The position numbers and the translations under genes are program-made. Of a stretch of DNA of 28,568 nt, positions 2,605-11,025 are shown one piece after another. Positions within the stretch are counted from its first letter, which is position 1. The number at the start of each line of letters is the position of its first letter. Origin of the DNA: Thiobacillus sp. (GTDB lineage: Bacteria; Pseudomonadota; Gammaproteobacteria; Burkholderiales; Thiobacillaceae). Under the pieces are notes generated by a model, which was given only the letters and a program-made list of their open reading frames with translations, was not told the origin of the DNA and ran no database searches. The stretch covers positions 1 to 28,568 of the forward strand of contig JAABQU010000176.1 in assembly GCA_011391285.1 (NCBI GenBank). Reading direction: 5' to 3'.

Positions 2605-2806
2605 TAATACTTCCTCCTTGGCGTGACACAAAACATAACCGCGAAAAGCATGACTGCGTTGGCGGACGACAGGACGGCGTGATTTTTTTAGCCGTCGGTC
2701 TGAATTCAAGCGCGCTACCCGCTGATGCCCTGCGGTAATGCCAAACCAGAACGGTTCTTGAAACCAAACTGATTGCATTTTTACTACCGCGGTTGTGTTT
2801 TTACAA
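2605..2806 (-). promoter_or_regulatory. Cold-shock gene promoter candidate and long 5' leader
   Basis: On the minus strand TTGTAA (2801-2806) and TAAAAA (2778-2783) are separated by exactly 17 nt. Transcription from there would give an untranslated leader of about 165 nt ending in AAGGAGGA before the csp ATG. Long structured leaders are a known feature of cold-shock mRNAs and act as temperature-responsive translation controls. The -35 and -10 each match consensus at only 4 of 6 positions, so the start point is tentative. Together with the first bases upstream of earP this explains the gene-free stretch 2605-2908. Confidence 0.4.
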
Positions 2807-2908
2807 GAGGAAAGCGTATTAAAACAAAGGCCTTTGCCAGGCTGTGGTTTCCTTCCAACTCCAGGTTTGTGCGGCGAGTGGCTGGCACGATGCGGTAGGA
2901 TGCGCGGC

Positions 2909-4054
2909 ATGCGCACCGACTGGGACATCTTCTGCAAGGTCGTCGACAACTATGGCGACATCGGCATCGCCTGGCGTCTGGCGCGCGGGCTGGTGAGCGA
3001 GCAGGGTCTGGCCGTGTGCTTGTGGGTGGACGATCTGGATGCATTTCACCGCATCTGGCCGACGATCGATCCGGACGCGGCCACGCAACGCTGCGAAGGG
3101 GTGACGGTTTGCGCGTGGCGCACGCCGTTTGCGGCAGTTGAGCCGGCGCAGGTGGTGATCGATGCCTTCGGCTGCACCCTGCCAGAAGCCTATCTGACCG
3201 CGATGAGCGTGCGGTCGCCGCCGCCGGTCTGGATCAATCTCGAGTACCTCTCCGCCGAGCCCTGGGTGGCCGAACACCATGGCCTGCCGTCGCCGCATCC
3301 GCGGCTGCCGCTGACCCGGTATTTTTTCTTTCCCGGCTATACGCCGGCCACGGGCGGCCTGCTGGTCGAAGCGGATCTGGCCGGGCGGCGCGAAGCGTTC
3401 GTGCAACGCGGAATCCCGGCGTTCTGGCGCGACCTGGGGCTTGAGCCGCCGCGGGGGGATGAATTGCGGGTGTCGCTGTTCGCCTACGAGAATCCGGCGC
3501 TGCCTGATCTGCTCGACGCCTGGGCCGCGGACCTGCGGCCCATCACCTGTCTCGTCCCCGAGGGCCGGGTTGTTCCGCAACTGGCGGCGTGGCTGTCGGT
3601 CCCGGGTTTGCAGGTGGGCGAGGGGCACCGCCGCGGGGCTCTGCAACTGCATATCCTGCCGTTCATGGATCAGGATACGTACGACCATTTGTTGTGGGCA
3701 TGCAATCTGAATTTCGTGCGCGGCGAGGATTCCTGCGTGCGGGCGCAGTGGGCGGCGCGTCCTCTGGTGTGGCAGGCCTACCCGCAGGCCGACGAAGCGC
3801 ACTGGGACAAGACGAACGCGCTGCTGCAGCACTACACGGAAGGCCTGGAAGGCGAGGCCGCGCACGCGGTGAGCGGCATGTGGCGGATATGGAATGGCAT
3901 GCCGGACGTGGCGGACATGGCGGCCTGCTGGGCGGCCTGGCGGGCGCAACAGGCTGTCATCGAGGCGCATGCGGTGGGCTGGTGCGACCGCCTCAGCCTC
4001 GCCGGTCGGTTGACCGACAAGCTGGTTGATTTCGTTGAAAATAAGTTAAAATAG
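2909..4054 (+). CDS. earP: EF-P arginine 32 rhamnosyltransferase EarP (381 aa)
   Basis: Inverting GT-B-type glycosyltransferase that transfers rhamnose from dTDP-L-rhamnose to Arg32 of elongation factor P. With the ATG at 2909 the N-terminus reads [19 protein letters not shown], placing Asp13 and Asp17 at the catalytic positions described for Pseudomonas EarP. The [10 protein letters not shown] motif puts Glu at residue 273, also matching the described active-site residue. That numbering, plus a GTAGGA sequence a suitable distance upstream, is why I prefer 2909 over the ATG at 2900. The efp gene follows 46 nt downstream and encodes Arg at position 32, so enzyme and substrate are adjacent. The dTDP-rhamnose (rml) genes are not in the window. 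Confidence 0.94.
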
Positions 4055-4100: not shown

Positions 4101-4661
4101 ATGAAAATCGCACAGGAACTCCGCGCCGGCAACGTCGTGATGGTCGGCAAAGACCCAATGGTGGTACAGAAGGCCGAATTCTCGAAATCGGGCCGCAATT
4201 CCTCCGTCGTCAAAATGAAACTGAAGAACCTGCTGACCGGTTCCGGCATGGAAAGCGTCTATCGTGCCGACGACAAATTCGAGACCGTCAACCTCGAACG
4301 CAAGGAATGCACCTATTCCTACTTCGCTGATCCCTTGTACGTGTTCATGGACAGCGACTACAACCAGTATGAAGTCGAAGGCGAAAACCTCGGCGACGCG
4401 CTGAACTACCTCGACGACGGCATGCCGGTCGAAGTGGTGTTCTACGACGGCAAGGCGATCTCGGTCGAGATGCCCACCACCGTCGTTCGCGAAGTCGAAT
4501 ACACCGAGCCTGCCGTGCGCGGCGACACCTCGGGCAAGGTCATGAAGCCGGCGCGCATCAAGCCCACCGGGTTCGAACTGCCGGTCGCGGCCTTCGTCGA
4601 AATCGGCGACATGATCGAGATCGACACCCGTACGAACGAATTCAAGCGCCGCGCCAACTAA
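4101..4661 (+). CDS. efp: Elongation factor P (186 aa, Arg32 type)
   Basis: Relieves ribosome stalling at polyproline stretches. It has the three-domain EF-P layout and normal length. The loop that reaches the peptidyl-transferase centre reads [10 protein letters not shown], with Arg at residue 32, the EarP-dependent rhamnosylated type rather than the Lys34 beta-lysylated type of E. coli. The C-terminus carries the conserved [18 protein letters not shown] block. AGGA about 10 nt upstream acts as a weak ribosome-binding site. GTTAAAATAGGCGG at 4045-4058, overlapping the end of earP, may be an internal promoter -10 element. A UUCG-loop terminator follows after an odd inverted repeat. Confidence 0.97.
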
Positions 4662-4873: not shown

Positions 4874-7800
4874 ATGACCGACCCGCGTTTCATCCATCTC
4901 CGCCTGCACACCGAATACTCCGTCGCCGATGGGCTGGTGCGGGTGGACGAGGCGATCAAGCGTGCGAAGGGCGTCGCGATGCCCGCGCTCGGGCTGTCCG
5001 ACCTGTCCAACACCTTCGGCTGGGTGAAGTTCTACCGCGCTGCGCGCGGCGCCGGCATCAAGCCGGTGTTCGGCTGCGACGTGTGGGTAAGCAACACCAC
5101 CGATCGCAATCGGCCCTCGCGCCTGTTGTTGCTGGTGCAGCACCGCGAAGGCTATCGCCGCCTGTGCGAGCTGCTCACCCGCGCCTATCAGGACAACATC
5201 CATCGCGGCCGCGCCGAGATCGATCCCATTTGGCTGGCCGATGGTACCGACGGCCTCCTGGCGCTGTCGGGCGGCGACGCCGGCAACGTCGCGCAGGCGC
5301 TCCTCGACGACAAGCCCGACGCGGCGCGTGCCGCAGCCGAGGCCTGGGCCGCGCTGTTTCCCGGCCGCTACTACCTGGAGCTGCAGCGCTTCGGCCAGCC
5401 GCATGCCGAGCGCCTGATCGACGGCCTGCTCGACCTTGGGGCGGCGCTGAAGCTACCGGCGGTCGCCACCCATCCCATCCAGTTCATCGCGCCGGACGAC
5501 TTCAAGGCGCACGAGGCGCGCGTGTGCATCGCCGAGGGCATGATGCTGGGCGACCCGCGCCGGCCGCGGCCGTTTACTACCGAGCAGTACTTCAAGTCGC
5601 CGGAGGAAATGGCGGAACTGTTCGCCGACCTGCCGGAGGCCTTGCAGAACAGCGTGGAAATCGCCAAGCGCTGCAACCTGACGCTGGAACTCGGCAAGAG
5701 CCGGCTGCCTGATTTCCCGACGCCGGATGGCATGAGTCTCGACGACTACATGCGGCAGCGTTCCTTCGAGGGGCTGCACGAGCGCATGGCCCAGCTTTAT
5801 CCCGATCCGGATGTTCGTGCCGCCAGGCTGCCCGAATACACCGCGCGGCTGGAGTTCGAGCTCGGCACCATCATCCAGATGGGGTTTCCCGGCTACTTCC
5901 TGATCGTGGCCGACTTCATCAACTGGGCCAAGAACAACGACGTTCCGGTGGGACCGGGGCGCGGCTCCGGCGCCGGTTCGCTGGTCGCCTACAGCCTGCG
6001 CATCACCGACCTTGATCCGCTGGCCTACGACCTGCTGTTCGAACGCTTCCTCAACCCTGAGCGGGTGTCGATGCCCGACTTCGACATCGACTTCTGCCAG
6101 GACGGTCGCGACCGTGTGATCCAGTACGTTAAGGAAAAGTACGGCCATGCGGCGGTGTCGCAGATCGCCACCTTCGGCACCATGGCGGCCAAGGCGGTGC
6201 TGCGCGACGTCGGCCGCGTGCTCGACCTGCCGTATCTGTTCGTCGACAAGTTCGTCAAACTGGTGCCCAACGAACTCGGCATTTCGCTCGCCGAGGCGCG
6301 CGAGAAGGAGCCGCAGATCGACGAACGCGCGCGAAACGAGGAAGAGCTCGCCGAGCTGCTGCCGCTGGCGGAAAAACTGGAGGGCATCACCCGCAACGTC
6401 GGCATGCACGCGGGCGGGGTGCTGATCGCGCCGGGCAGGCTCACCGACTTCTGCCCGCTGTACCGCGCGGAAGGTTCGGAATCGATGGTGTCGCAGTTCG
6501 ACAAGGACGACGTCGAGGCGATCGGTCTGGTCAAGTTCGACTTTCTCGGCCTGCGCACGCTGACCATCCTGGCCGAGGCGGTGCGCTTCGTGCAGCGGCA
6601 TGAAGACCGCACCGACTTCCGGCTGGAAGACTTGCCGCTCGACGATCCGGCGGTATACAAGCTGTTTGCCGACGGCAACACCACGGCGGTGTTCCAGTCC
6701 GAATCGCGCTCGGCCAAGGATCTGGAAAAGAAGCTGAAGGGCGACTGCTTCGAAGACATCATCGCGCTGATGGCGCTCAACCGCCCGGGGCCGCTCGGCT
6801 CCGGCATGGTGGACGACTTCATCGCCCGCAAACAGGGCAAGCAGAAGCCGGAGTATTTCCATCCCGATCTCGAGCCGGTGCTGAAATCGACCTACGGCAT
6901 CATCGTCTACCAGGAGCAGGTGATGCTGGTGGCGCAGATCCTGGCCGGCTACAGCCTCGGTGCCGCCGACATGCTGCGGCGCGCCATGGGCAAGAAGAAG
7001 CCCGAGGAAATGGCCAAGCAGCGGGAGATTTTCCTGGCAGGCGCATCCAAGCGCGGGGCGGACACCAAGGTCGCCGAACGGCTGTTCGACCTGATGGAGA
7101 AATTCGCCGAATATGGTTTCAACAAGTCACACTCGGCCGCCTATGCGCTGGTGGCCTATCACACCGCCTGGCTCAAGGCCTATTACCCGGCCGAATTCAT
7201 GGCCGCGACGATGTCGTCGGAAATGTCCGATACCGACAAGGTTCGCGTGTTCTACGAGGACTGTCGCGCCAACGGGCTGACCATGCTGCCGCCCGACATC
7301 AACCTGTCGGGCTACCGCTTCGACCCGGTCAGCAAGACCGAGATCCGCTACGGACTGGGCGCGATCAAGGGTGGCGGCGAGGCGGCAATAGGCGCGATCG
7401 TCGCCGAACGTGAAGCCAACGGGCCGTATAAAGGCCTGTTTGACTTGGCTCGTCGCATCGACAAGCGCTATCTCAACCGCCGCGTGCTGGAGGCGCTGGT
7501 GAAGGCCGGGGCGTTCGACAGCCTCAACGACCACCGTTCCAGCCTGATGGCCTCGGTCGGTGCGGCGCTGGAAACCGCTGATCGCGCGGCACGCAGTGGC
7601 GGTCAGGTCGGGCTGTTTGGCGAGATCCTGGACGGCGGCGGCGAAGACCTGATCGACGTGCCGGCCTGGGCCGAGCAGGAAAAGCTGCTGCAGGAAAAAT
7701 CCGCACTGGGCTATTTCTTCAGCGGTCATCCCTTCACCTCCTATCTGGCGGAGGTGGGAGGTTTTGCCAAAAGACAACTCGACAGTCTGGAACCGGCCCG

Positions 7801-8314
7801 CGAACTCCAGATGCTGGCCGGAATCGTCGTATCGCTGCGCACCCAGATGACCCGGCGCGGCAAGATGATGATTCTGCTGCTCGATGACGCGACTGCGCAG
7901 GTCGAGGTGGTGATCTTCAACGAACTCTTCGAGCAGAACCGCCATCTGCTGAAAGACGACACCCTGCTGGTCATCGAAGGCAAGGTCAATCGCGACGATT
8001 ATTCGGGTGGCCTGCGGGTTACCGCGGAACGGATCTACGACTTGGCGGGGGCGCGCACCCGCTTTGCCCAAGGGCTGCGGCTGGCGTGCAACGGACAGTG
8101 TCATGGCCAGCCCAACAGTGGCCGCAAATTGAGTGAATTGCTCGCGCCCTACAAGGTGGAGGAGGGCGGCTGTCCGGTCTGGGTGGATTACCACAACCGG
8201 GATGCGCGCTGTCGCGTGCGGCTGGGCGAGGAATGGCGGGTCAGGCTGGACGACCGGCTGATCGAATCCTTGGGCGACTGGCTCAAGCCCGAGGCGGTCA
8301 ACGTCATTTACTGA
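4874..8314 (+). CDS. dnaE: DNA polymerase III alpha subunit (1146 aa)
   Basis: Catalytic subunit of the replicative polymerase. The PHP domain covers roughly residues 5-280 (FIHLRLHTEYSVADG at the start). The polymerase palm includes GPGRGSGAGSLVAYSL and PDFDIDFCQDGRD, with the likely catalytic aspartates at 404 and 406. Next come the finger and helix-hairpin-helix regions, then a beta-clamp-binding motif QVGLF at residues 911-915, and an OB fold at about 975-1050 (LAGIVVSLRTQMTRRGK...). Length is close to the 1160 aa of E. coli DnaE. The gene stands alone behind the efp terminator; no good Shine-Dalgarno precedes the ATG. It is the DnaE1 type (C-terminal OB fold and clamp motif), not ImuC/DnaE2. 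Confidence 0.97.
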   Translation: MTDPRFIHLRLHTEYSVADGLVRVDEAIKRAKGVAMPALGLSDLSNTFGWVKFYRAARGAGIKPVFGCDVWVSNTTDRNRPSRLLLLVQHREGYRRLCELLTRAYQDNIHRGRAEIDPIWLADGTDGLLALSGGDAGNVAQALLDDKPDAARAAAEAWAALFPGRYYLELQRFGQPHAERLIDGLLDLGAALKLPAVATHPIQFIAPDDFKAHEARVCIAEGMMLGDPRRPRPFTTEQYFKSPEEMAELFADLPEALQNSVEIAKRCNLTLELGKSRLPDFPTPDGMSLDDYMRQRSFEGLHERMAQLYPDPDVRAARLPEYTARLEFELGTIIQMGFPGYFLIVADFINWAKNNDVPVGPGRGSGAGSLVAYSLRITDLDPLAYDLLFERFLNPERVSMPDFDIDFCQDGRDRVIQYVKEKYGHAAVSQIATFGTMAAKAVLRDVGRVLDLPYLFVDKFVKLVPNELGISLAEAREKEPQIDERARNEEELAELLPLAEKLEGITRNVGMHAGGVLIAPGRLTDFCPLYRAEGSESMVSQFDKDDVEAIGLVKFDFLGLRTLTILAEAVRFVQRHEDRTDFRLEDLPLDDPAVYKLFADGNTTAVFQSESRSAKDLEKKLKGDCFEDIIALMALNRPGPLGSGMVDDFIARKQGKQKPEYFHPDLEPVLKSTYGIIVYQEQVMLVAQILAGYSLGAADMLRRAMGKKKPEEMAKQREIFLAGASKRGADTKVAERLFDLMEKFAEYGFNKSHSAAYALVAYHTAWLKAYYPAEFMAATMSSEMSDTDKVRVFYEDCRANGLTMLPPDINLSGYRFDPVSKTEIRYGLGAIKGGGEAAIGAIVAEREANGPYKGLFDLARRIDKRYLNRRVLEALVKAGAFDSLNDHRSSLMASVGAALETADRAARSGGQVGLFGEILDGGGEDLIDVPAWAEQEKLLQEKSALGYFFSGHPFTSYLAEVGGFAKRQLDSLEPARELQMLAGIVVSLRTQMTRRGKMMILLLDDATAQVEVVIFNELFEQNRHLLKDDTLLVIEGKVNRDDYSGGLRVTAERIYDLAGARTRFAQGLRLACNGQCHGQPNSGRKLSELLAPYKVEEGGCPVWVDYHNRDARCRVRLGEEWRVRLDDRLIESLGDWLKPEAVNVIY

Positions 8315-8365
8315 TCTTCGCTGCGGCTGATACGAAATGACTTAACGCCGCACTGAAAATAGTTG

Positions 8366-8394
8366 TTGACATGTATTTCGTTATATTAGAAAAT
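8366..8394 (+). promoter_or_regulatory. Sigma-70 promoter of small RNA candidate
   Basis: TTGACA (8366-8371), a perfect -35, is followed by a 17-nt spacer and GAAAAT (8389-8394; 4 of 6 matches to the -10 consensus) in a locally AT-rich stretch that stands out in this GC-rich DNA. The expected start is near 8401. No open reading frame with a recognisable start follows, and a strong terminator ends at 8499. Confidence 0.6.
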
Positions 8395-8400
8395 TCTTAT

Positions 8401-8499
8401 AACGCTTCAGTTGCCGCAACGGTGACTTAGTGTTGTCTCCTCCAATCCTCCTCCTTTGGTGGATACTCTGCCCGGCTCTCACGAGTCGGGCATTTTTTT
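8401..8499 (+). ncRNA. Candidate small RNA with anti-Shine-Dalgarno hairpin loop
   Basis: An orphan transcription unit of about 99 nt between dnaE and acyP, bounded by the promoter at 8366-8394 and the terminator at 8469-8499. Inside it UCC-U-CCAA (8438-8445) can pair with UUGG-U-GGA (8456-8463), leaving the 10-nt loop UCCUCCUCCU (8446-8455). A second CUCCUCC lies in and just before the 5' arm (8437-8443). A CCUCC loop is the complement of ribosome-binding sites and is the hallmark of known C-rich-loop regulatory RNAs in proteobacteria, such as the CcsR/cuckoo RNAs of Rhodobacter. A smaller GUUG-CCG-CAAC hairpin is possible near the 5' end (8410-8420). No coding potential is convincing. Structure and function are inferred; the sequence elements are directly visible. 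Confidence 0.55.
8469..8499 (+). terminator. Intrinsic terminator of the small RNA candidate
   Basis: TGCCCGGCTC (8469-8478), loop TCAC, GAGTCGGGCA (8483-8492), then seven T. The stem is 10 bp with one G-U pair. It lies 150 nt past dnaE and could also end dnaE read-through. Confidence 0.9.
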
Positions 8500-8669
8500 G
8501 TCCGGAATTCCGCTCAGCCCCGTCACGTCCGTCTCAAGGCGGTCCTGAGCCGTTTGTCGTCGCCATGCCCAAAGAGCCCTGGCGATCCATTGCTCATGGA
8601 TGTTGTGGGTGTTTTTGATTGCTCGCGTTCCCCGCAATGCTGGGGCTTTGCGCGGTGCTGAAATGATAT

Positions 8670-8939
8670 TCAGTCGATCTGCTTCACGAATCCGCTGAAA
8701 TCGCCCTGTGCGTCGACCAGGTCGATGCGATCCACTCGTGCCTGCGGCGGACCGATCCGCGCCCACGCAATGAGCGCGTCGACGGCCGTGTCCGGCCCCT
8801 GAACCACCGCCTCCACCGAGCCATCTGGCGCATTGCGCACCCAGCCCGTCACGCCCAGGCGTTCGGCCTCGCTCCGCATGGATTCGCGAAACCATACGCC
8901 CTGCACCCGGCCATGAATGAGCAGGTGTTGCGTCCTCAT
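8670..8939 (-). CDS. acyP: Acylphosphatase (89 aa)
   Basis: Small cytoplasmic enzyme hydrolysing acyl phosphates. The signature [11 protein letters not shown] gives the phosphate-binding loop with the catalytic Arg at 18, and [12 protein letters not shown] gives the catalytic Asn at 36; C-terminal strand residues follow. Length is normal. It begins 7 nt after the metG stop and is probably co-transcribed with metG. The 355-bp stretch 8315-8669 beyond its stop holds the small RNA candidate on the opposite strand; I see no strong acyP terminator there. Confidence 0.94.
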
Positions 8940-8946
8940 GCCTTGA

Positions 8947-10989
8947 TCACTTCACCTTCATGCCCGGCTGCGCGCCGCTGTCTGGCGACAGGATGAAGAG
9001 GCCGGGTGCGTCACCCGAGGCCGCCAGCACCATGCCTTCGCTCATGCCGAATTTCATCTTGCGCGGCGCGAGGTTGGCGACCATCACGGTCAGCCGTCCC
9101 ACCAGTGCTTCCGGCGCGTAGGCCGACTTGATACCGGCAAACACCTGGCGGGTGCCGAGCTCGCCGAGGTCGAGCGTCAGCCGCAGCAGCTTGTCGGCGC
9201 CTTCGACGTGTTCGGCGTTGGCGATGCGCGCGATGCGCAGGTCGATCTTGGCGAAGTCGTCGATGCTAATGGTGTCAGCCACCGGCTGCGTGGCATGCAC
9301 CTGGGCTTCGGCGTGGCGCACCGGCGCGGGAGCTGGGGTGGGTTCGAGGTTCTGTTTGTTGGCGTCTACCATGGCTTCGATGGATTTGGGGTCGATACGG
9401 GTCATCAGGTGGCTGTATTCGTTGATGCGGTGGCGGATGAACAGGCTTTGCACGTCGTCCCAGGCCAGCGGTGGAATGGCGAGGAAGGCCTCGACCTGCT
9501 CGGCGAGCTTCGGCAGTACCGGCTTCAGGTACAGGGTCAGCAGGCGGAAGCAGTTAAGCGCAACCGTGCAGACTTCATGCAGGCGATACACCGCTTCCGG
9601 TTTCTTCGCCAGTTCCCAGGGCTTTTCGTCGGCCACGTACTGGTTGGCGCGGTCGGCCAGCGCCATGATTTCGCGCAGCGCCTTGGCATAATCGCGCGCC
9701 TCGTAATGTGCGGCGATCGTGCCGGCGGCGGCCTGGAAGTCGCCGATCAGTTCGAGGTTCGCCACGCCGTCGGCGAGCTTGCCTTCGAAATTCTTGTGGA
9801 TGAAGCCGGCGGTGCGGCTGGCGATGTTGATGAACTTGCCGACCAGGTCGGAGTTCACACGCGCGACGAAGTCGTCGAGGTTGAGATCGATGTCCTCCAT
9901 GCTGCCGTTGAGCTTGGCCGCGTAGTAGTAGCGCAGCCACTCGGGATTGAGCTTCTGCGCGAGATAGCTCTCGGCGGTAATGAAGGTGCCGCGCGACTTC
10001 GACATTTTCTGCCCGTTCACCGTCAAAAAGCCGTGCGCGTACACCGCCGTCGGCAGGCGGTGGCCGGAAAATTTGAGCATCGCCGGCCAGAACAGGGCAT
10101 GGAAATACAGGATGTCCTTGCCAATGAAGTGCACCAGTTCAGTTTTCGATTCGGCGCCCCACCAGGCGTCGAAGTCGAGGCCGTTGTCCTTGGCGTATTT
10201 GGCGAAGCTCGCCATGTAGCCCACCGGCGCATCCAGCCACACGTAGAAATACTTGCCTGGCGCATCGGGAATCTCGAAGCCGAAGTAGGGTGCGTCGCGG
10301 CTGATGTCCCAGTTGTTGAGACCCGAGGCGAACCATTCCTGCATCTTGTTGGCGGCTTCGCTCTGCAACGCGCCCGAGGTCGTCCACTCGCGCAGGAAAG
10401 CCTCGCACGCGCCGAGCTTGAAGAAGTAGTGCTCGGAATCCTTGTGCACCGGCGTTGCCCCCGACACCGCCGACACCGGGTTCTTCAGCTCGGTCGGGCT
10501 GTAGGTTGCGCCGCACACCTCGCAGTTGTCGCCGTACTGATCCAAAGCGCCGCACTTGGGGCATTCGCCCTTGATGAAGCGGTCCGGCAGGAACAGGTTC
10601 TTCACCGGGTCGTACAGCTGGGCGATCGTCTTCACCTCGATCAGCCCGGCTTCCTTCAGCCGCAGGTAGATCTTCGAGGCTAGTTCGCGGTTTTCAATGG
10701 AATGCGTCGAGTAGTAATGGTCGAAGCCGATGTGGAAGCCGGCGAAGTCGCGCGTGTGATCAATCCACACCCGGCCGATCAGCGCCTCCGGCGTGATGCC
10801 TTCCTTTTCCGCGCGCAGCATGATGGCGGTGCCGTGGGTGTCGTCGGCGCACATGTAGCGGCAGTCGTGGCCGCGCATCTTCTGGAAGCGCACCCAGATA
10901 TCGGTCTGGATGTATTCGACCAGGTGGCCGAGGTGGATGCTGCCGTTGGCGTAGGGCAGGGCGGAGGTGACGAGGATCTGGCGGGACAT
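8947..10989 (-). CDS. metG: Methionyl-tRNA synthetase (680 aa)
   Basis: Class I aminoacyl-tRNA synthetase charging tRNA-Met. The HIGH-type motif is HLGH (residues 19-22), KMSKS is at 328-332, and the zinc knuckle CPKC...CEVC lies around residues 141-161. The C-terminal tRNA-binding (EMAP/Trbp111) domain is present from about residue 575 ([13 protein letters not shown] ... [14 protein letters not shown]). Length fits the dimeric MetG with a C-terminal extension. The ATG at 10989 ([16 protein letters not shown]) is the family start; the frame opens 10 codons further upstream without support. GTTAAAATGGCGG at 11026-11038 on the minus strand is a likely promoter element, so metG-acyP may have its own transcript. 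Confidence 0.97.
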
Positions 10990-11025
10990 GGAAACAGCCG
11001 GGGCATACCCAAGGGGCACAAGAGG

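Follow-up and report, generated by a model that had tools for sequence, protein, structure and literature searches.

The RNA predicted at about 8401–8499 of the window, by which we mean the whole 28,568-nt stretch of Thiobacillus sp. DNA analysed here, is a member of the already described family RF02278 and not a new kind of RNA. The original prediction had presented it as an orphan that it could place in no annotated family, but it is not an orphan, because the covariance search matched RF02278 ("Betaproteobacteria toxic small RNA") over the gathering score, covering positions 1–64 of the 64-position model. We are confident, on the strength of this match and of comparison with published relatives, that the locus encodes a trans-acting small RNA with its own promoter and terminator, which would block the ribosome-binding sites of a set of mRNAs with the help of Hfq. 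The family has been published, as have its layout and mode of action, and what distinguishes this lineage is the anchoring beside dnaE and a conserved hairpin at the 5' end. In the literature searched, where a broad search was judged by titles, we found no published account of a dnaE-linked RF02278 locus. The features of the locus are collected in Table 1.

Table 1. Positions in the window of the sRNA gene, its parts and its neighbours
Feature	Position	Strand	Remark
dnaE	4874–8314	+	upstream same-strand neighbour; Pfam DNA_pol3_alpha and others
-35 hexamer TTGACA	8366–8371	+	TTGACA in 41 of 43 dnaE-linked loci, window included
Conserved block ATATTA + GAAAAT (spacer end and -10)	8383–8394	+	mean pairwise identity 0.87
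5' hairpin AACGC...GUGUU	8401–8434	+	MFE fold; end-stem covariation; outside the Rfam model
RF02278 match (double-hairpin anti-SD sRNA)	8434–8499	+	58.1 bits; gathering score 50
GUCUCCUCC, first anti-SD copy	8435–8443	+	in 95 of 95 distinct sequences of the group
Register A hairpin (original prediction), UCC.CCAA / UUGG.GGA	8438–8463	+	loop 8446–8455 is UCCUCCUCCU
Register B anti-SD hairpin, AUCC.CC / GG.GGAU	8445–8464	+	arm and loop hold the second anti-SD copy
Intrinsic terminator, 10-bp stem and U7	8469–8499	+	inside the RF02278 match
acyP (acylphosphatase)	8670–8939	-	convergent downstream neighbour; Pfam
metG	8947–11019	-	beyond acyP

A conserved promoter-core-terminator unit beside dnaE

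The original prediction had described a TTGACA hexamer, a 17-nt spacer, an AT-rich -10, a terminator with a 10-bp stem and seven T, and no gene in between, and all of these were found. The promoter (-10 hexamer GAAAAT at 8389–8394) is the sole promoter-like match in 7800–9200, where shuffled sequences average 0.2. One terminator-like site was found in the same interval, formed by the stem 8469–8478/8483–8492 with a 4-nt loop and the seven T at 8493–8499, and since shuffles gave 1.3 it does not by itself exceed chance. From the end of dnaE at 8314 to 8478 there is no listed ORF of at least 80 aa; a minus-strand ORF of 138 aa (8479–8895) overlaps the terminator and, in a different frame, acyP, and is probably a shadow ORF. 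Elsewhere in the window, a cspA thermoregulator leader (Rfam) lies at 2351–2750 on the minus strand with 80.3 bits (cut-off 78), and earP, encoding the EF-P rhamnosyltransferase (2795–4054, +), adjoins efp (4101–4661, +), an arrangement of the rhamnose type of EF-P modification.

When the C-terminal 399 aa of DnaE served as the query, 80 of 402 confirmed loci were kept, and Rfam scans covered 60 of these, 42 near and 18 distant. The near set (L001–L042; 66–93% identity) consists largely of Thiobacillus or Hydrogenophilales records (33 of 42), and its nearest locus, L001, is a Gammaproteobacteria MAG. In 41 of the 42 near loci RF02278 passed the cut-off just after dnaE, while in L032 the score fell under the cut-off and the motif was kept; none of the 18 scanned distant dnaE loci had a match over the cut-off. 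Among 100 genomes from the family of G003, 89 had a match that passed the cut-off and 94 a match of any strength, with one such passing copy in 87 of the 89 and two copies in G413 and G417. A set of 369 genomes from the class, G003 included, was searched with stricter filters by which weak matches were lost, and yielded 3 genomes over the cut-off and 103 with some match.

Across 43 dnaE-linked loci the -35 had a mean pairwise ungapped identity of 0.97, the ATATTA-GANNAT block one of 0.87 and the remaining spacer one of 0.50; the value was 1.00 for GTCTCCTCC, most of whose letters the locus-finding pattern required, and 0.39 and 0.33 in the 60 nt on either side of the locus. The promoter, the anti-SD core and the terminator are thus conserved together beside dnaE as a unit and the flanking DNA is not, which agrees with the free-standing anti-SD sRNA gene that had been proposed. 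In total 112 loci were collected (the window, L001–L042 and L126–L194), with some genomes represented twice, and the core pattern used for extraction was present in every one; 58 are of a Thiobacillus type with two A after CTCC, and 54 are of a sister type with one A. A looser pattern lost only L135 and left 111 sequences, of which 95 are distinct (44 Thiobacillus type and 51 sister type).

A strict block pattern made 105 of the 112 loci scorable for the -35, seven being left out, and the TTG stood at fixed spacing in 104 of them: TTGACA was read in 52 of 53 Thiobacillus-type loci, and TTG at that position in 51 of 52 sister-type loci. In the Thiobacillus-type loci the -10 region resembles an inverted repeat, TATTAGA-N4-TCTAATA. 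A regulon operator at this position was considered and rejected. The extended block ATATTAGANNATNCTNATA occurs at 7 sites in nine related genomes, six at the sRNA locus itself (in six genomes) and one elsewhere (in G001), three of the nine genomes having no site, and the right half of the repeat varies among relatives. Because of this distribution and the variable right half, we regard the repeat as a promoter block and not as an operator.

The original prediction did not describe the 5' hairpin, which begins close to the inferred start of transcription, or exactly there, and which the Rfam model omits. The fold of 8401–8499 reaches -41.8 kcal/mol against -22.1 in shuffles (z -6.75), and that of 8434–8499 has a z of -6.08. 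When the outer stem was compared from fixed ends with no alignment gaps, 58 distinct end pairs formed standard pairs at positions 1–5 in 58, 57, 57, 58 and 53 cases, with exchanges among A-U, G-C and G-U at positions 1 and 4. Over all relatives 94.0% of the first eight pairs form, compared with a mean of 83.9% and a maximum of 87.1% in 1000 column shuffles and a maximum of 87.3% in whole-arm shuffles; for the sister type alone the value is 94.6%, neither kind of shuffle exceeding 86.4%, and for the Thiobacillus type alone it is 93.5%, with 93.0% in the best of 1000 column shuffles and 94.0% in the best whole-arm shuffle, kinship being ignored throughout. The stem therefore covaries across the wider relatives, and covariation within the Thiobacillus type is weak, because 93.5% barely tops the column shuffles and falls under the best whole-arm shuffle. 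In many relatives an ATG in the hairpin opens a frame through the core, as judged by eye, but no conserved small peptide was seen by the same inspection, because the window and others carry ACG at this position.

The anti-SD core and its two folds

The hairpin of the original prediction (register A) can form, although with seven of its eight pairs, since 8441 and 8460 make a U.U mismatch. The second CUCCUCC (8437–8443) was said to lie just before it; this stretch in fact largely coincides with the hairpin's 5' arm, so that both anti-SD copies compete for the same partner at 8458–8464. Register B uses the same 3' arm, GGUGGAU, and leaves UGUCUCCUCCA open. The two folds are close in energy (A, the MFE, -27.4 kcal/mol; B, -26.5), and the dominant one depends on the assumed 5' end, with A ahead for 8401, 8405 and 8434 and B slightly ahead for 8395 and 8360. 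In the sister type the arm pairs predominantly with the second copy (0.72 vs 0.28), and in the Thiobacillus type such pairing is in the minority (0.43 vs 0.57); the window's own core, common to 33 of the 95 sequences, gives 0.66 for A and 0.34 for B.

Comparison across relatives favours register B as the better kept of the two. All six counted pairs are retained for B in 92 of 95 sequences and for A in 72, and among the 23 distinct cores 22 keep B and 9 keep A; we say only favours, because the gap rests mainly on one pair, 8444–8457. The compensatory changes and the invariant CCUCC loop that were expected for the 8438–8463 stem did not appear. This stem hardly varies, so compensatory changes are lacking, and the variation that exists fits register B better; the loop copy keeps CCTCC in all 51 distinct sister-type sequences but in only 39 of the 44 Thiobacillus-type ones, and is without it in the other five. 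The invariant part in the dnaE-linked and sister group is GUCUCCUCC, not the loop. The stretch GTCTCCTCC was present in 95 of 95 sequences, most of its letters being required by the extraction pattern, although this requirement cost none of the 112 loci. The invariance stops short of the whole Rfam family, as L098, a class-sample sequence that passes the cut-off, has UCUCCUCU there.

A further CCUCC before GUCUCC was seen in 10 of the 51 distinct sister-type sequences (for example L127, L128, L137 and L148) and CUCC in 26, and in 0 and 1, respectively, of the 44 Thiobacillus-type sequences. From these letters, one reading is that a third anti-SD display may have been gained or lost between the Thiobacillus and sister lineages.

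The nearness of the two registers allows a bolder interpretation, in which the RNA is a two-state regulator whose GGUGGAU arm flips between the copies and in which, in addition, the dnaE-linked locus is ancestral and the dispersed copies of the family are derived. We consider this combination unlikely. If the first part were true, target binding or the exact 5' end would flip the displayed anti-SD copy; if the second were true, the dnaE-linked locus would have been inherited vertically and the family's dispersed copies would have come from it.

Proposed action, targets and competing explanations

In the reading that we prefer, that of a trans-acting RBS-blocking sRNA, a sigma70-type promoter would give a predicted RNA of about 99 nt (about 8401–8499) that stops at its own terminator, and perhaps also a shorter form starting near 8434. 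Because the single SD-like arm GGUGGAU covers one anti-SD copy at a time, the other would stay free; GUCUCCUCC, or alternatively the second CCUCC copy, would be displayed to purine-rich ribosome-binding sites. Hfq would help the RNA to pair with these sites, pairing would block 30S binding on a set of mRNAs, and GUCUCCUCC would be the main contact with the targets. The hfq gene is encoded in all nine related genomes searched. We infer the processing, the use of Hfq and the blocking of ribosome-binding sites from published relatives, and the window RNA would be a base-pairing repressor of this kind because S17 of Bordetella pertussis has a comparable order of parts. According to a preprint (PMC11722255), S17 is cut by RNase E near its CU-rich stretch and depends on Hfq, and its short form, S17S, represses BP2158 mainly via Site 1, where a mutation in either partner disrupts repression and matching mutations in both bring it back. 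In Burkholderia cenocepacia, ncS27 overexpression is reported to slow growth, with the opposite effect from an antisense to its CU-rich part (PMC5688073).

A different possibility is a global decoy: as a mimic of the 16S anti-SD, the RNA would compete for mRNA or for ribosomal factors and slow translation as a whole. The RNA does carry two anti-SD copies, and the family takes its name from growth inhibition in E. coli (PMC5688073, PMC4603805). However, deletion of S17 is described as raising 91 or 92 genes (both are the paper's own counts) and not all, overexpression of S17S as hardly impairing E. coli growth (PMC11722255, preprint), and NcS27 as slowing growth on some substrates only (PMC10987360). 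A general decoy is accordingly improbable. From these reports toxicity would seem to differ within the family, S17S hardly inhibiting E. coli, unlike what the family name says.

Slightly less probable still, and in our view very unlikely, is that the sequence is only the terminator or 3' UTR of dnaE and that any small RNA from it is a by-product. The -35 is on the dnaE strand and starts 52 nt past the stop codon of that gene, 7800–9200 yielded no second terminator-like site, and DnaE lies directly upstream on the same strand in 42 of 42 near loci. Against these points, a separate conserved promoter sits between dnaE and the core, and the core matches an sRNA family with published expressed members. 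Furthermore, the core is still conserved in 22 of 50 distinct sister-type loci whose fetched stretches, some of them short or cut by the contig end, showed no DnaE C-terminus. The RF02278 terminator may nevertheless serve dnaE as well.

For the repressor that we prefer, targets were sought in nine related genomes, where GGAGGAGAC occurs 2–9 nt before ATG at 24 sites, one of which precedes prsR in 7 of the 9. This recurrence was rejected as evidence of targeting, because a control 9-mer recurs too: GGAGGAGCA preceded one orthologous gene in 8 of 9 genomes (flhF-like by reading of the protein start). A second control, GGAGGAGTC, gave 13 sites and no gene common to the genomes. Strong ribosome-binding sites can be conserved between related genomes, and recurrence says no more than this. 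Among the best 30 loci of 71 genomes with a prsR match, 28 starts were readable; the exact 9-mer preceded prsR in 14 of them, and 21 ranked by duplex energy in the top 5% of a background made up of 247 ORF starts (400 kb of G420), a sample that is biased by the choice of prsR through the GGAGGAGAC motif itself. On these matches prsR is a candidate target, as a lead only. A PEP-CTERM gene has been tied to RpoN and probably to PrsK-PrsR (PMC9850573). None of the targets tested in related genomes passed the control search, and site-1 duplexes at seven gene starts of the window were unremarkable, lying between -2.7 and -8.6 kcal/mol where the background median is -8.3.

Relation to known families

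Several weaker relatives were seen in other genomes. A second, shorter one of 45 nt, with 30–38 bits and thus below the RF02278 cut-off, occurs in 5 of 9 Thiobacillus-like genomes (L090, L091, L092, L094 and L095, at about 1501–1545); it has UGUCUCCUC(C) just before a terminator and, upstream, a conserved palindrome CTACAACTAAAGTTGTAT and a GAAGTTCTCCGCAA.GAGG element, and in L090, L091 and L095 it is closely followed on the same strand by a gene that by eye encodes a Nudix hydrolase. Class genomes gave weak matches below the cut-off (L099–L125) with a core like CUCCUCCAUCCUCCUUUGGUGGUU, of which L099–L102, L104, L110 and L112 are without the UGUC start; L099 and L100 share a promoter TTGACA...ATAT(T/C)AGA like that of the window. 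Of 15 loci of this group that were scanned, none reached the cut-off of any sRNA family, and 8 had a tRNA gene roughly 1 kb away. By their letters these matches may represent an undescribed neighbouring family. In a Zoogloeaceae MAG (L047, 5220–5556, +), two tandem sRNA-Xcc1 copies (RF02221) over the cut-off lie about 1 kb downstream of dnaE.

CcsR/cuckoo RNAs of alphaproteobacteria have an anti-SD-like C-rich motif, defined by CUCCUCCC, and sit behind a small DUF1127-type gene. The kinship with them that the original prediction had drawn from a small hairpin RNA with a C-rich anti-SD loop is almost certainly wrong, since 8401–8499 is without the CUCCUCCC motif, the neighbours are dnaE upstream and acyP downstream, and the only Rfam families over cut-off in the whole window are cspA, tRNA and RF02278, the last of which contradicts such a kinship. 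Five other Rfam families scored below their cut-offs by cmscan, including anti-hemB (23.9 vs 49.5 bits). The Neisseria RNA NmsRb (RF02877) resembles the window RNA in its 5' hairpin, unpaired CU-rich stretches and terminator, and aligns weakly over 8402–8497, but at 25.6 bits against a cut-off of 52; for anti-hemB and NmsRb this is similarity of layout, not membership.

The original report of the toxic sRNA family is said to be that of Kimelman in 2012. The window RNA has the UGUCUCCUCC start, the double hairpin and the terminator with its U run, and its predicted folds show two hairpins, the second being the terminator, with unpaired CU-rich anti-SD stretches, as in RF02278; the first stem of the Rfam drawing is in a third register (8441–8444/8460–8463). 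Published members include ncS03, ncS05, ncS27 and ncS62 of B. cenocepacia, whose members are reported as short free RNAs that are higher in biofilm or under nutrient limitation, and Hsnc59, 63, 86 and 107 of Herbaspirillum (PMC7011215). In the four Herbaspirillum members the RNA extends 24–47 nt upstream of where the model begins (Table 1 of PMC7011215), a likeness to the window RNA. Burkholderia genomes are reported to hold three to five dispersed copies (PMC5688073), whereas Thiobacillus-like genomes have the copy beside dnaE. The family thus gains a fixed dnaE-linked representative in Thiobacillus-like bacteria, with dozens of genomes available for comparing promoter, 5' hairpin, core and terminator.

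Another close described system is S17, which is related to RF02278 members by reported homology and has a CU-rich processed 5' end (Site 1), a loop site and a terminator, with its own sigma-A promoter of 17-bp spacing and a short form of 67 nt from the CU-rich stretch (PMC11722255). Its long form, S17L, is given as 190 nt, with about 123 nt before the processed end and a predicted small ORF (PMC11722255), whereas in the window RNA about 34 nt precede 8434 and fold into a hairpin, with no conserved ORF seen by eye. Targets of S17 have been published (PMC11722255), and the window RNA was compared with it by the published description; on that comparison GUCUCCUCC would be the positional counterpart of Site 1. 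The picture of how such anti-SD RNAs act is left unchanged by the window locus, and the comparison of relatives marks the 5' GUCUCCUCC as the most constrained part, which agrees with the Site 1 mutants of S17 if the two correspond.
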